From: Spirochaeta thermophila DSM 6578
Lineage (GTDB): Bacteria > Spirochaetota > Spirochaetia > Winmispirales > Winmispiraceae
Direction of reading: 5' to 3'
Assembly (NCBI RefSeq): GCF_000184345.1
Contig: NC_017583.1
Coordinates: 186,001 to 250,000, forward strand
Length of the DNA: 64,000 nt
The translations under genes and the position numbers were made by a program. Numbering within the stretch: the stretch's first letter is position 1; the number at the start of each line of letters is the position of its first letter. The notes beneath the pieces were generated by a model. The model was not told where the DNA came from. It worked only from the letters and a program-made list of their open reading frames with translations, and searched no databases. This document shows positions 38,375 to 44,821 of the stretch, in pieces.

Positions 38375-39262
38375 ATGAAGCGTGCGGTCTATCCTGTATC
38401 GGCGTTGAAGAGGAGACTCCCGGAGGCGGAGATCTGGGAGGAGCCTTCCCTCCCTTCCGAGGGTGCGCTCCGAAGGGGGGTGGTCCCCCCGCTCCTCTGG
38501 GCCCCTGACGGGCTCGTGTGGAGCGGGGCCCTCTGCGATCGTCTCCGGGAGGCGGGGTGGAAGGAGATCCCCGTGGTACTGCTCGAGGGGGAGGAGGCAC
38601 GTCCCCTCAACCGGATCACGGCCGCCTTGGAGTGCGAGAACAGGGCAGGGGCCTACACCTGGGAGGAACAGGCGCGTATCTACGAGCTCTGCAGGACCTA
38701 CGGCCTCCTCGAGGAGGCGGAGCGGATCGTCCCTCTCGTGGTTCCGGGCAAGCGCGATTTCTCCCACGTGGAGCGTTACCTGTCCCTTCCTGCGTCGTTC
38801 AGGGAGATGGTCCGTGAGGGCAAGGTGGATCTCAAGACGGCCTGGGAGGTGAGGGATCTCCCGGATCCGGTGGGAGGGCTCGTTTCCTACTATCCCCACA
38901 GGATGACCTTCTCGGAAAGGAGACAGATCCTCGTGATGCTGGCCGAGATCGTCCGGCGGGAGGGGCTCGACGAGCGTGCGGCGATGCACCGCGCGGGGGA
39001 ACTGCTCGCGTCGCCCAAACCCCTCGAAGCGGTGTGGAGGGCCCGTTTCCCGCGTCTCGCCGGCATGGAGGATTCCTTCGCTGCGTCGAGGCGAAGGCTC
39101 CTCGACGGTACCGGGGTGGCACTGGAGGCGCCCCCGGGGTTCGAGGGGCATTCCCTGAGGGTGAGTTTCCGGTTCTCCTCCCGTACGGAGTTTGGGCGGA
39201 GGATGAAGGCGCTCTCGAAACTCGAGGAGCATCTGGATGAGTTCCTTTCGTTCCTTGGCTGA
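38375..39262 (+). CDS. ParB-like protein of unknown function
   Basis: The 295-residue protein follows a ParB/Srx N-domain plan at residues about 30-110: PPLLWAPDGLVWSGALCDRL stands where ParB has the GERRxxA box, here degenerate, then IPVVLLEG, ALECENR and WEEQARIYEL. A helical part (about 110-165) resembles the ParB helix-turn-helix linker (VERYLSLPASFREMVREGKV). Residues 165-295 are unassigned. It overlaps the radical SAM gene by 26 nt, so they form an operon. Not next to parA or oriC genes, so chromosome partition is unlikely. Confidence 0.6.
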   Translation: MKRAVYPVSALKRRLPEAEIWEEPSLPSEGALRRGVVPPLLWAPDGLVWSGALCDRLREAGWKEIPVVLLEGEEARPLNRITAALECENRAGAYTWEEQARIYELCRTYGLLEEAERIVPLVVPGKRDFSHVERYLSLPASFREMVREGKVDLKTAWEVRDLPDPVGGLVSYYPHRMTFSERRQILVMLAEIVRREGLDERAAMHRAGELLASPKPLEAVWRARFPRLAGMEDSFAASRRRLLDGTGVALEAPPGFEGHSLRVSFRFSSRTEFGRRMKALSKLEEHLDEFLSFLG

Positions 39263-40325
39263 GATCGCTCACGTCTACGTAGAGCGGGACGCGCTCTCCC
39301 TCCCTGCAGTTGAGCGGGCGAGGGAGTCCCTCGCAGGGGCCTCGTGGCACGTGGTGGAAGGGAAGGAGGAGATGCCTCCCGAAGACCTCAACAGCAGGAC
39401 GCTCTTCCTCACCCGGCCGAAGGGGAGGATCGTCGGGCGGTGTCCCGGGTCACGAGGGCACGTGTGCTGCAACTACCTCACGGTGGACCTCTACGTGGGA
39501 TGCCCGCTCGGCTGTTCCTACTGTGTGATGAAGGGATATCTCAACTTCTCCCCGCTGGTGGTGCACGTGGATCCTCGACCCGCCGTGGAGGAGCTGGTGC
39601 GACTCGCGGAGACCCATCCCGACCGGCCGATACGGGTGGGCACGGGGGAGGTGGGGGATTCGCTGTTCCTCGACCCTGTCTTCAGACTCTCGGAGGAGTT
39701 CATCCGGGCCCTCGCCCCTTATCCCCACGTGAGCTTCGAGGTGAAGACCAAGACCGCCTCGGTGGATCACCTGCTCGGGGTGGCTCCCAAGGGCCGGGCC
39801 GTGGTGGGGTTCTCCCTCAATCCTCCCCGGGTGGTGGCGGAAGAGGAAGGGGCCGCCGCTCCGCTGGAGGAGCGTCTCGAGGCGGCGAAGAAGGTCCTTG
39901 ATGCCGGGTTCCGCCTCTCCTTGCATTTCGATCCCATCTTTCGTTTCCCCGGATGGGAGGATGCCTATGCCCGGGTGGTGGGGGCCCTCGCTCCGTTCCC
40001 GGCCGACGGAATCGCCTGGGTGAGTCTGGGGACCATCCGATACCTGCCGGCCCTGAAGGAGAGGATGTCGGGGCGCCCCTATCTCTACGACGAGTTCGTC
40101 CTCTCCCGGGACGGCAAGTTCAGGTATCTTCAGGCGATGAGGGTGGAGGTGTACCGATACATGAAGGATCTCATCACCGGTATCTGGCCCGGGACCCCCG
40201 TGTACCTGTGCATGGAGAGCGCCGCGGTCTGGTATCGCGTATTCGGTACCCTTCCCCGGAAAATTCCCGAGCTTTGGGCTATATTTGAAAGGGTAGCGCT
40301 CTCGGGAGAAAGGAGGAAGCGATGA
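39237..40325 (+). CDS. Spore-photoproduct-lyase-like radical SAM enzyme
   Basis: The 362-residue protein has the radical SAM cluster motif CPLGCSYC (CxxxCxxC, about residue 90) and SPL-type surroundings: GRCPGSRGHVCCNYLTVD, GTGEVGDSL, FEVKTKTASVDHLL and LHFDPI. SPL repairs thymine dimers in spores; this organism shows no sporulation genes here, so the substrate may be another DNA lesion. GAGGAGCATCTGG precedes the ATG inside the ParB-like gene. It ends in ATGA with the FecR gene. Confidence 0.85.
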   Translation: MSSFRSLAEIAHVYVERDALSLPAVERARESLAGASWHVVEGKEEMPPEDLNSRTLFLTRPKGRIVGRCPGSRGHVCCNYLTVDLYVGCPLGCSYCVMKGYLNFSPLVVHVDPRPAVEELVRLAETHPDRPIRVGTGEVGDSLFLDPVFRLSEEFIRALAPYPHVSFEVKTKTASVDHLLGVAPKGRAVVGFSLNPPRVVAEEEGAAAPLEERLEAAKKVLDAGFRLSLHFDPIFRFPGWEDAYARVVGALAPFPADGIAWVSLGTIRYLPALKERMSGRPYLYDEFVLSRDGKFRYLQAMRVEVYRYMKDLITGIWPGTPVYLCMESAAVWYRVFGTLPRKIPELWAIFERVALSGERRKR

Positions 40326-41386
40326 AACGTATGGTGCTCGTGTCCCTGTTCGTATGTGCGGGCCTGTATGCCACGGGCCCCGAGATGGGTATGGTGAGCT
40401 ATGTGGAAGGCGAGGTGGTGCTCCTCAGAGAGGACAGGGAGCTCCTCCCGGTGGACTTCGGGATGGAGGTGCGTGAGTACGACCTCATAAGGACGGGACG
40501 GGACGGGTACGTGGTGGTGGACTTCCTGGAGGAGGGGGGCATCTCCGGTTCGGTGGAGATACGGCCGGGAAGCGTGTTCCAGGTGGTGCGCGAGGAAGAG
40601 GAGAAGACCACGACCATGGAACTCTTCGCCGGTCAGGTCTTCCTGAAGGTGAAGCGGCTCGCGGGCACCGACGAGGTGGTGGTGCGTACCGAGGGTGCGG
40701 CGATGGGGGTGCGGGGGACGGAGTTCGAGGTGATCACCTCCGCGGGAGGTGATCTCCTGGTGATCTGTACCGAAGGGAGGGTGGCGTGCCGGGCTGGGGA
40801 GGGAGAGACCGCCTTCGCCGAGCCGGGCAAGGCCGTGGAACGCCGGGTGGGGGAGCGGCTGAGAACCGTGCTCTTCCGGCTCGCCGAGGCCGAGGACCTC
40901 AAGCGGAACTGGCTCACCGAGCGGATGGAGGCCTTCAGGGCCAACGCACCCCGTGTCTTTTCGCTCTATGCCCGCCTCTATCGGGAGAGAAAGCGAGCCT
41001 TTGATGAGGCCTACGGGGATCTCCTCAGGAGGCAGGAGGTGGTGAACGAGTGGATACGGCGCTACAAGCAGGGGAGGCTTTCTGAAGGGGGACCCGAGGC
41101 CTTACGGGAACGCAAAGAGCTTGCGGGGGTCATGCTCCGATTGAGGAAGGAACTGTTCCTCTTCTCACGGGTCTACTACAGGTTGATCGAACTGGTCTCG
41201 TACTACCACGAAGGAGTGGGGCACGGGAGGCTCGATACCGGAGAGGAGATAGGGAGCTTCGTCGCACAGGTGGAGAAAGAGGCGAGGGAGCTGGCCTCGA
41301 GGCTCCAGTACGTGCGGTTCGTCATGTTCCTCTTCGAACAGCGGGGACGTTCACTGCTGGGCGAGTCGCTTCTCTTCGAGGACTGA
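40322..41386 (+). CDS. Secreted FecR-domain protein
   Basis: The 354-residue protein has a signal peptide (about 1-18) and a FecR-like beta domain (about 24-165, with GDLIRTG-like YDLIRTGRDGYVVVDF and AAMGVRGTEFEV). The C-terminal 180 residues are helical and highly charged (YARLYRERKRAFDEAY). Without a TonB receptor or ECF sigma factor next to it, a role in iron signalling is unlikely; similar stand-alone FecR proteins occur in spirochaetes. GGAGGAAGCG precedes the ATG. Confidence 0.82.
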   Translation: MKRMVLVSLFVCAGLYATGPEMGMVSYVEGEVVLLREDRELLPVDFGMEVREYDLIRTGRDGYVVVDFLEEGGISGSVEIRPGSVFQVVREEEEKTTTMELFAGQVFLKVKRLAGTDEVVVRTEGAAMGVRGTEFEVITSAGGDLLVICTEGRVACRAGEGETAFAEPGKAVERRVGERLRTVLFRLAEAEDLKRNWLTERMEAFRANAPRVFSLYARLYRERKRAFDEAYGDLLRRQEVVNEWIRRYKQGRLSEGGPEALRERKELAGVMLRLRKELFLFSRVYYRLIELVSYYHEGVGHGRLDTGEEIGSFVAQVEKEARELASRLQYVRFVMFLFEQRGRSLLGESLLFED

Positions 41387-43809: not shown

Positions 43810-43838
43810 ACTCTAGAGACGGTGTACGCTCTTGTCAA
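43810..43838 (-). promoter_or_regulatory. Promoter of the solute-binding lipoprotein gene, leaderless type
   Basis: Minus strand TTGACA (43833-43838), 17-bp spacer, TAGAGT (43810-43815), then 7 nt to the ATG. The -35 overlaps the -35 of the divergent radical SAM gene. Confidence 0.65.
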
Positions 43839-43860
43839 TCGGTGGAGGATGGGCGAGTAT
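43832..43860 (+). promoter_or_regulatory. Divergent promoter of the radical SAM gene, leaderless type
   Basis: TTGTCA (43832-43837), 17-bp spacer, GAGTAT (43855-43860), then 7 nt to the ATG at 43868. The -10 is weak (3 of 6). Confidence 0.4.
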
Positions 43861-43867
43861 TGAGGTG

Positions 43868-44821
43868 ATGGAGGACCGGGAAGGGCCGCGGTATCGTTCG
43901 TTCTCGCGCTATCTCAAGGAACGCTTCGGCGGGGTGGTCTACCGGGTGGGGGTCGATGCGGGATTCTCCTGCCCCCATCGGGACTCGAGGGAGGGACGGG
44001 GGTGCGCCTTCTGCGATGTGGAGGGGTCCCGGGCGCCCTATCTCGGTGATGTCCGGGGGCTCGAGGAGCAGGTGCGGCGGGCCAAGGGGTTCCTGAAGGC
44101 GCGCTACGGGGCCTCGCGGTTCCTGCTCTACTTCCAGGCGTACACCAATACGTACGGCCCGGTGGAGGAGCTCCGGAGGGTGTACGAGGCGGGGCTGGCG
44201 GCGGGTGAGGGGGAATGGGTGGGGCTGATCGTCTCTACCCGACCGGACTACCTTCCCGACGAGGTGCTCGACCTCCTCGCTTCCTACAAGGCGCGGGGCC
44301 TCGAGGTGTGGGTGGAGCTGGGGCTCCAGTCCGCCTTCGACGAGACGCTCAGGAGGATACGGCGAGGGCACACCGTGGCCCAGTGGGAGGATGCGGTGCG
44401 GCGGGCAGGTGAGGCCGGGCTCCTCCGGGCGGCCCATCTCATCGCAGGCCTTCCCGGCGAGGGGAGGGAGGCGTTCTGGGAGAGCGCCCGGTTCGTGGCC
44501 GAATCCGGGGTGGAGGGGATCAAGTTCCACGATCTCCACCTTCCGGTGGGTGCACCCCTCTTCCAGGAGTATCTGAGGGGTGAGCTCTCCCTCCTCTCAC
44601 GGGAGCGCTACCTCGAGTACGTGATGGGGGCCCTGGAGCGGATACGGCCCGATATGGTGGTGATGCGGCTCGTCACCGACACCCCGCCGGAGAGGAGGGG
44701 GGTCCCCGGACAGTACATGCCCAAGGGCCGGTTCTTGAGGAGGCTCGAGGATGAGATGAGGAGGAGGGGGACACGGCAGGGGAGGTTGTGGGTTGAAGTG
44801 GGGGGAAGAAAAACGAGGTGA
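43868..44821 (+). CDS. Radical SAM protein of the YtqA/TIGR01212 type
   Basis: The 317-residue protein has an iron-sulfur motif in FSCPHRDSREGRGCAFC, with YQAYTNTY-like FQAYTNTYGP and GLQSAFDETLRRIRRGH downstream, as in YtqA-like radical SAM proteins. Substrate unknown; some relatives modify tRNA. GAGGTG lies just before the ATG, but a -10-like GAGTAT sits 7 nt upstream as in the leaderless genes here. Confidence 0.85.
   Translation: MEDREGPRYRSFSRYLKERFGGVVYRVGVDAGFSCPHRDSREGRGCAFCDVEGSRAPYLGDVRGLEEQVRRAKGFLKARYGASRFLLYFQAYTNTYGPVEELRRVYEAGLAAGEGEWVGLIVSTRPDYLPDEVLDLLASYKARGLEVWVELGLQSAFDETLRRIRRGHTVAQWEDAVRRAGEAGLLRAAHLIAGLPGEGREAFWESARFVAESGVEGIKFHDLHLPVGAPLFQEYLRGELSLLSRERYLEYVMGALERIRPDMVVMRLVTDTPPERRGVPGQYMPKGRFLRRLEDEMRRRGTRQGRLWVEVGGRKTR

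Follow-up and report, generated by a model that had tools for sequence, protein, structure and literature searches.

The window analysed here is a 64,000-nucleotide stretch of DNA from Spirochaeta thermophila DSM 6578 (NC_017583.1, positions 186,001 to 250,000), in which three open reading frames on the same strand overlap by 26 nt (genes 1 and 2) and 4 nt (genes 2 and 3), as the first-pass annotation had described and as the ORF coordinates confirm (Table 1). They encode a ParB-like protein, a radical SAM enzyme resembling spore photoproduct lyase (SPL), and a FecR-domain protein. The assignment of gene 3 is sound (37.5 bits against Pfam FecR, for which the cutoff is 24), but its proposed place as a steady third member of the group is not, since a FecR gene lies downstream in only about 27 of the 47 loci with room for one, or about 57% (a script counted 22 within 300 bp, to which offsets add about five). 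FecR was therefore rejected as a component of the system. No convincing SOS box or promoter is seen upstream of gene 1, and ParA is absent among the neighbours in the ORF list and, as judged by eye, does not recur in the neighbour clusters. A further radical SAM protein is encoded downstream (window positions 43832-44821), and a similar gene is found near the pair in 9 of the 55 loci fetched from other genomes.

Table 1. Features of the three-gene locus, with positions in the window.
Feature	Position	Strand	Evidence
Gene 1, ParB-fold partner, 295 aa	38375-39262	+	Profile, AlphaFold/Foldseek, ParB_N in distant orthologs
Position of the ParB GERR (CTP phosphate) box; gene 1 reads WSGAL, family pattern G-[FWHY]-x-[LI], arginines lost	38519-38533	+	HMM alignment to 7bnk, column counts
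E88-N89-R90, what is left of the ParB ENxxR box; E in 59/66 and R in 60/66 rows	38636-38644	+	HMM alignment, column counts
HTH end and following helical module (LP..., TFSERRQILVMLAEI), matching the N-terminal domain of long SPL-like enzymes	38813-38974	+	hhalign
R-[YF]-P ... P-x-x-F-E-G, the best-conserved stretch among partner proteins; candidate enzyme-contact surface	39044-39148	+	Alignments
Gene 1/gene 2 overlap, 26 nt	39237-39262	+	ORF coordinates
Gene 2, SPL-like radical SAM enzyme, 362 aa	39237-40325	+	Pfam SPL, structure match
C69-x7-C77-C78, extra invariant cysteines directly before the cluster motif	39441-39470	+	Alignment
[4Fe-4S] cluster motif CxxxCxxC; C89, C93, C96, invariant	39501-39524	+	Alignment
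GTGEVGDS; invariant E138 at the SPL H-donor position (C141 in B. subtilis)	39639-39662	+	Alignment
YLCMES, C325 signature; shared by every partner-type and long form examined, none in canonical SPL	40203-40220	+	Alignment
Gene 3, FecR-domain protein, 354 aa, likely signal peptide (by eye)	40322-41386	+	Pfam FecR

Gene 2 encodes an SPL-fold radical SAM protein, in agreement with its earlier description as SPL-like. It scores 63.1 bits against the Pfam SPL family (PF20903, cutoff 27), and its structural model (pLDDT 83, pTM 0.85) matches six SPL structures in Foldseek with E ~1e-19 and TM-scores of 0.71-0.77 over about 340 columns, the first non-SPL fold following at E 2e-5. Its scores with the NCBIfam models are low: it reaches 66.8 bits with TIGR04070, under the 400-bit equivalog cutoff of a model on which B. 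velezensis SplB scores 516.9 bits, and 37 bits with TIGR03886, for which the cutoff is 437 bits. Compared with SplB itself (PDB 4fhc; E 1e-19, TM ~0.75, 22-23% identity over ~340 residues), the protein shares the CxxxCxxC motif, the conserved core, and the SAM-side tyrosine (Y97 in B. subtilis numbering), which is Y95 in gene 2. It departs from canonical SPL in having a glutamate for C141, in lacking Y99, in its additional cysteines C69, C77, C78, and C325, and in being accompanied by a ParB-like partner.

These replacements fall on residues of known function, since in B. subtilis SPL the hydrogen atom donor is C141 and Y99 serves as the radical relay (PMC3742179). The C141 position is an invariant glutamate (GTGE) in the 14 aligned enzymes of the same short form as gene 2 and a glutamine (GTGQ) in the longer forms described below, and Y99 is replaced by valine or isoleucine in the short forms. 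C325 lies in a Y-x-CME signature at the point where B. subtilis SPL ends. In clostridial SPL the cysteine donor is C74, on the opposite side of the pocket (PMC5368176), and PDB entry 4rh0 is, by its title, an SPL C140A/S76C mutant. By analogy with these two proteins, it is plausible that the H-donor cysteine has been relocated in the gene 2 enzyme. In one lineage (loci L164 and L165), the partner is present and the enzyme has none of C69, C77, and C78. In several genomes of one genus (L164, G111:C1:1230000-1234000, positions 1404-2441, and related genomes of family f52), the SPL match crosses an in-frame TGA directly after CME, which marks either the end of the protein or an unusual stop.

Gene 1 as a single sequence gives no useful match in Pfam, NCBIfam, PADLOC, or PDB searches. 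A family profile built from an alignment of 15 orthologs, however, matches solved structures of Myxococcus and Caulobacter ParB with E-values of 5e-5 to 1e-3, and the first 26 ranks of a Foldseek search with the AlphaFold model (mean pLDDT 93) are taken by structures of ParB, Noc, and Spo0J. Global TM-scores with these structures are low (0.2-0.4) because the domain arrangement differs, so that support for the fold comes from the family-wide ranking and the E-values rather than from any single superposition. Distant orthologs also match Pfam ParB_N, the best at E 1.1e-5 and 25.8 bits, slightly below the 26.3-bit cutoff. Gene 1 thus has the ParB fold (N domain plus HTH), and its initial description as ParB-like is borne out by profile searches as well as by structure. 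It shares with chromosomal ParB and Noc, which are CTP-dependent clamps, the layout of N domain, HTH, and C-terminal domain, but lacks the GERR box and shows no sign of pairing with ParA at the locus, which also sets it apart from the ParABS partition system. A separate, genuine ParB (193.7 bits) is encoded in the same genome.

The degeneracy of the GERR-like box remarked on in the first-pass annotation is evident from the HMM alignment and column counts, in which the box falls on WGFxL, with the glycine retained in 60 of 66 rows and the arginines replaced in nearly all Spirochaetia rows. Several distant orthologs retain GxNR here, as GFNR or GHNR, implying that the box was probably lost inside the partner family. 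Given the loss of these arginines, CTP clamping by the gene 1 product is unlikely on sequence grounds, and the earlier suggestion that the partner might bind CTP is not supported. Conservation in the partner is concentrated in the C-terminal domain and not in the HTH. The N domain and HTH are so weakly conserved that Pfam fails to recognise them in several lineages, and DNA binding by the partner may therefore not be universal.

The proposal that the two genes are coupled is well supported by their distribution. Among 60 related genomes, the short enzyme is present in 16, and the partner gene is found in the same 16, adjacent to the enzyme gene in every case, and in none of the other genomes. 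A scan of 84,980 species yielded 55 loci, all with Spirochaetes titles, and in all 55 of the fetched loci the ParB-like gene lies directly upstream of the SPL-like gene. For counting across 296 Spirochaetota genomes we used a profile of the C-terminal half of the partner (A5), because a broad full-length profile (A3) also caught true ParB proteins, whose matches stop near position 190-200 of 299. The partner is present in 103 of these genomes and the enzyme in 138, comprising 98 of the 103 with the partner and 40 of the 193 without it (Fisher p 1e-38, not corrected for kinship). The five partner-bearing genomes that lack the enzyme are drafts with completeness of 66-93%, and all 29 partner-bearing families, counted by eye, also have the enzyme; in about 15 genomes, a partner-type or similar enzyme is seen and the partner is undetected. 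Of the 98 pairs, no more than about 25 lie side by side (coordinates read by eye), most being unlinked, and in the one-contig genome G062 the two genes are separated by ~1.46 Mb. The co-inheritance is therefore more than synteny alone. In G062 and G103, the partner gene lies away from the enzyme gene and near apparent genes for RNase H, plsY, and the GTPase Der (loci L130 and L145), a setting that appears to be a conserved place in these distant genomes.

A longer enzyme, mostly of about 400-480 aa with an added helical N-terminal domain, occurs without the partner in 29 of the 60 relatives. The partner is found in none of 13 long-form genomes, and no genome has both the short and the long form, against 7.7 expected (p 2e-6, uncorrected). 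The added domain aligns with the HTH exit and next helix of the partner (LP...LSFSxRR...EI) over 56 columns in hhalign (probability 80%, E 1.4e-5, score 36.1), whereas scores do not exceed 16.2 for shuffled columns (60 shuffles per target), 18.8 for reversed profiles, and 15.9 for unrelated neighbour families, and the short enzyme family itself scores 15.5. A narrow partner profile gave a probability of only 11%, compared to 80% for the broad one, and we retain the match together with its controls. The long enzyme therefore appears to be a partner module fused to the enzyme, an assignment in which our confidence is moderate because the match is short. This fused module is the strongest hint that partner and enzyme would be in direct contact. 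In a 36-row tree, the short forms, the long forms, and the L164/L165 lineage each form one group, and partner-type enzymes are spread over several deep branches.

Spore photoproduct (SP) arises in SASP-coated spore DNA. The earlier remark that this bacterium shows no sign of sporulating is consistent with our searches, which found no match to Spo0A in its genome and no match to SASP in 21 genomes including that of S. thermophila. In addition, at least one carrier record is titled as coming from horse feces, a dark habitat. Taken together, these observations make classical SP repair unlikely as the main role of the pair. A role in UV damage, which had been proposed along with heat damage, is a guess, because the H-donor of SPL is replaced, SASP is missing, and some carriers come from dark habitats. 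Photolyase has no match in the S. thermophila genome, and its co-occurrence was uninformative as a hint of UV exposure, with matches in 7 of the 16 genomes that have the short form, 14 of the 29 that have the long form, and 3 of the 14 that have neither. Two genomes, G028 and G048, carry a second SPL of clostridial type alongside the partner-type enzyme (L108, G028:C1:1396500-1399500; L109, G048:C1:2806500-2809500), which suggests separate roles for the two enzymes; this second SPL has neither C141 nor the cysteine before the cluster motif.

The most economical reading of these data is that a ParB-derived adaptor guides a radical enzyme that acts on DNA, a description that covers both lesion reversal and base modification. 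We consider the chances about even that the products of genes 1 and 2 make up such a dedicated two-protein system, with DNA as the presumed substrate, and the pair is probably a DNA-repair or DNA-modifying system in bacteria with no sign of sporulation. More tentatively, a ParB fold deprived of its CTP switch may now serve as targeting subunit for a radical SAM enzyme that repairs or modifies DNA, in a two-component Spirochaetota pathway with a relocated H donor and a one-chain, fused variant. The gene 1 product, as a ParB paralog that retains the layout and has lost the CTP box, would most likely be a static DNA-binding adaptor that delivers the enzyme to its DNA target. Gene 2 would then cleave SAM at the [4Fe-4S] cluster and abstract a hydrogen atom from a DNA base or base adduct, after which a hydrogen atom would be returned by a relocated cysteine in place of C141. 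This donor would be C325 or, on the same side as in clostridial SPL, one of C69, C77, and C78. The net outcome would be reversal of a DNA lesion, or modification of a base, without SAM recycling via Y99. In related Spirochaetia, the fused, partner-derived helical module would take the place of the separate subunit.

Instead of repairing damage, the pair might make a DNA (or RNA) base modification, the ParB-like protein reading the sequence and the radical enzyme altering a base. The replacement of the SPL H-donor and tyrosine relay by an invariant glutamate and new cysteines is consistent with this alternative, as are the missing SASP, which makes spore photoproduct an unlikely substrate, the presence of at least one carrier in a dark habitat, and a weak match of long forms to TIGR03916, a "putative DNA modification/repair radical SAM protein". 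The enzyme, however, has the SPL fold over its full length with no catalytic domain added, and nothing specific to a known modification pathway is seen alongside. We regard this alternative as unlikely, if worth keeping in mind. A true spore photoproduct lyase that uses a relocated cysteine donor to act on SP of dry or frozen cells, with the partner aiding lesion finding, seems rather improbable. The SPL fold and the movable donor implied by the clostridial enzyme and the 4rh0 mutant argue for it, and the loss of the C141 and Y99 positions, the missing SASP, and the second, clostridial-type SPL in G028 and G048 argue against it.

Less probable still is that the ParB-like protein regulates transcription of the SPL-like gene, or serves as its stability factor, and stands outside the enzyme's reaction. 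An overlapping HTH-protein gene directly upstream would suit a regulator, for which Bacillus splA-splB, annotated as a small regulator gene beside the lyase, provides a precedent, yet the partner is retained even when unlinked from the enzyme gene, its helical module is fused in the long enzymes, and its conserved part is the C-terminal domain and not the HTH. There is a slim chance that the enzyme has a protein substrate, which could be the partner, and works in the manner of peptide-modifying radical SAM enzymes. The invariance of RYP...P..FEG within a fast-evolving partner and the extra enzyme cysteines, which could hold a second Fe-S cluster, speak for this. SPL structures are nevertheless the nearest folds, far ahead of SuiB or anSME, and the part of the partner that bears the motif has no place in the long enzymes. 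The possibility that the neighbourhood is inherited synteny with no functional link is very remote and largely refuted, because co-occurrence persists where the two genes are unlinked and the FecR gene, though part of this block, goes missing much more frequently than the partner does, even though several flanking genes are likewise syntenic in Spirochaetia (neighbour clusters).

Very few radical enzymes, SPL among them, are known to reverse damage to DNA, and the pair bears on the question of why SPL-like enzymes are present in bacteria without spores. Such enzymes in non-sporeformers are already known as TIGR03886, and the gene 2 group scores far below both NCBIfam cutoffs. None of the papers searched describes an SPL/ParB-like coupling of this kind, the one co-mention of the two being in a Clostridium genome paper. 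The co-inherited, ParB-derived partner, together with the natural experiment of the fused form, makes the question testable, and the partner offers a handle for purifying the active complex and finding its substrate. If our reading is correct, this would be a new use of the ParB fold beyond partitioning and nucleoid occlusion.

Among known relatives, SPL of the clostridial type (C. acetobutylicum, C74 donor) falls with the partner-type enzymes and not with Bacillus SPL in a midpoint-rooted tree and likewise offers a candidate donor cysteine ahead of the cluster motif, but it lacks the partner and the GE..DSL and CME signatures. TIGR03916, a radical SAM family linked to uracil-DNA glycosylase, resembles the gene 1/gene 2 pair as a predicted DNA modification/repair radical SAM protein with a dedicated neighbour; the families are distinct, however, and the only match, with a long form, is weak and partial. 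TIGR03886 proteins share the SPL fold and the lack of C141, with GEN at that place, but are without C69, C77, C78, and CME, and no partner is seen in the two plasmid loci viewed (Streptomyces and Deinococcus). At the Streptomyces plasmid locus (L104, positions 1507-2556), the TIGR03886 gene, which has a glutamate at the C141 position, adjoins a cryptochrome/photolyase gene.
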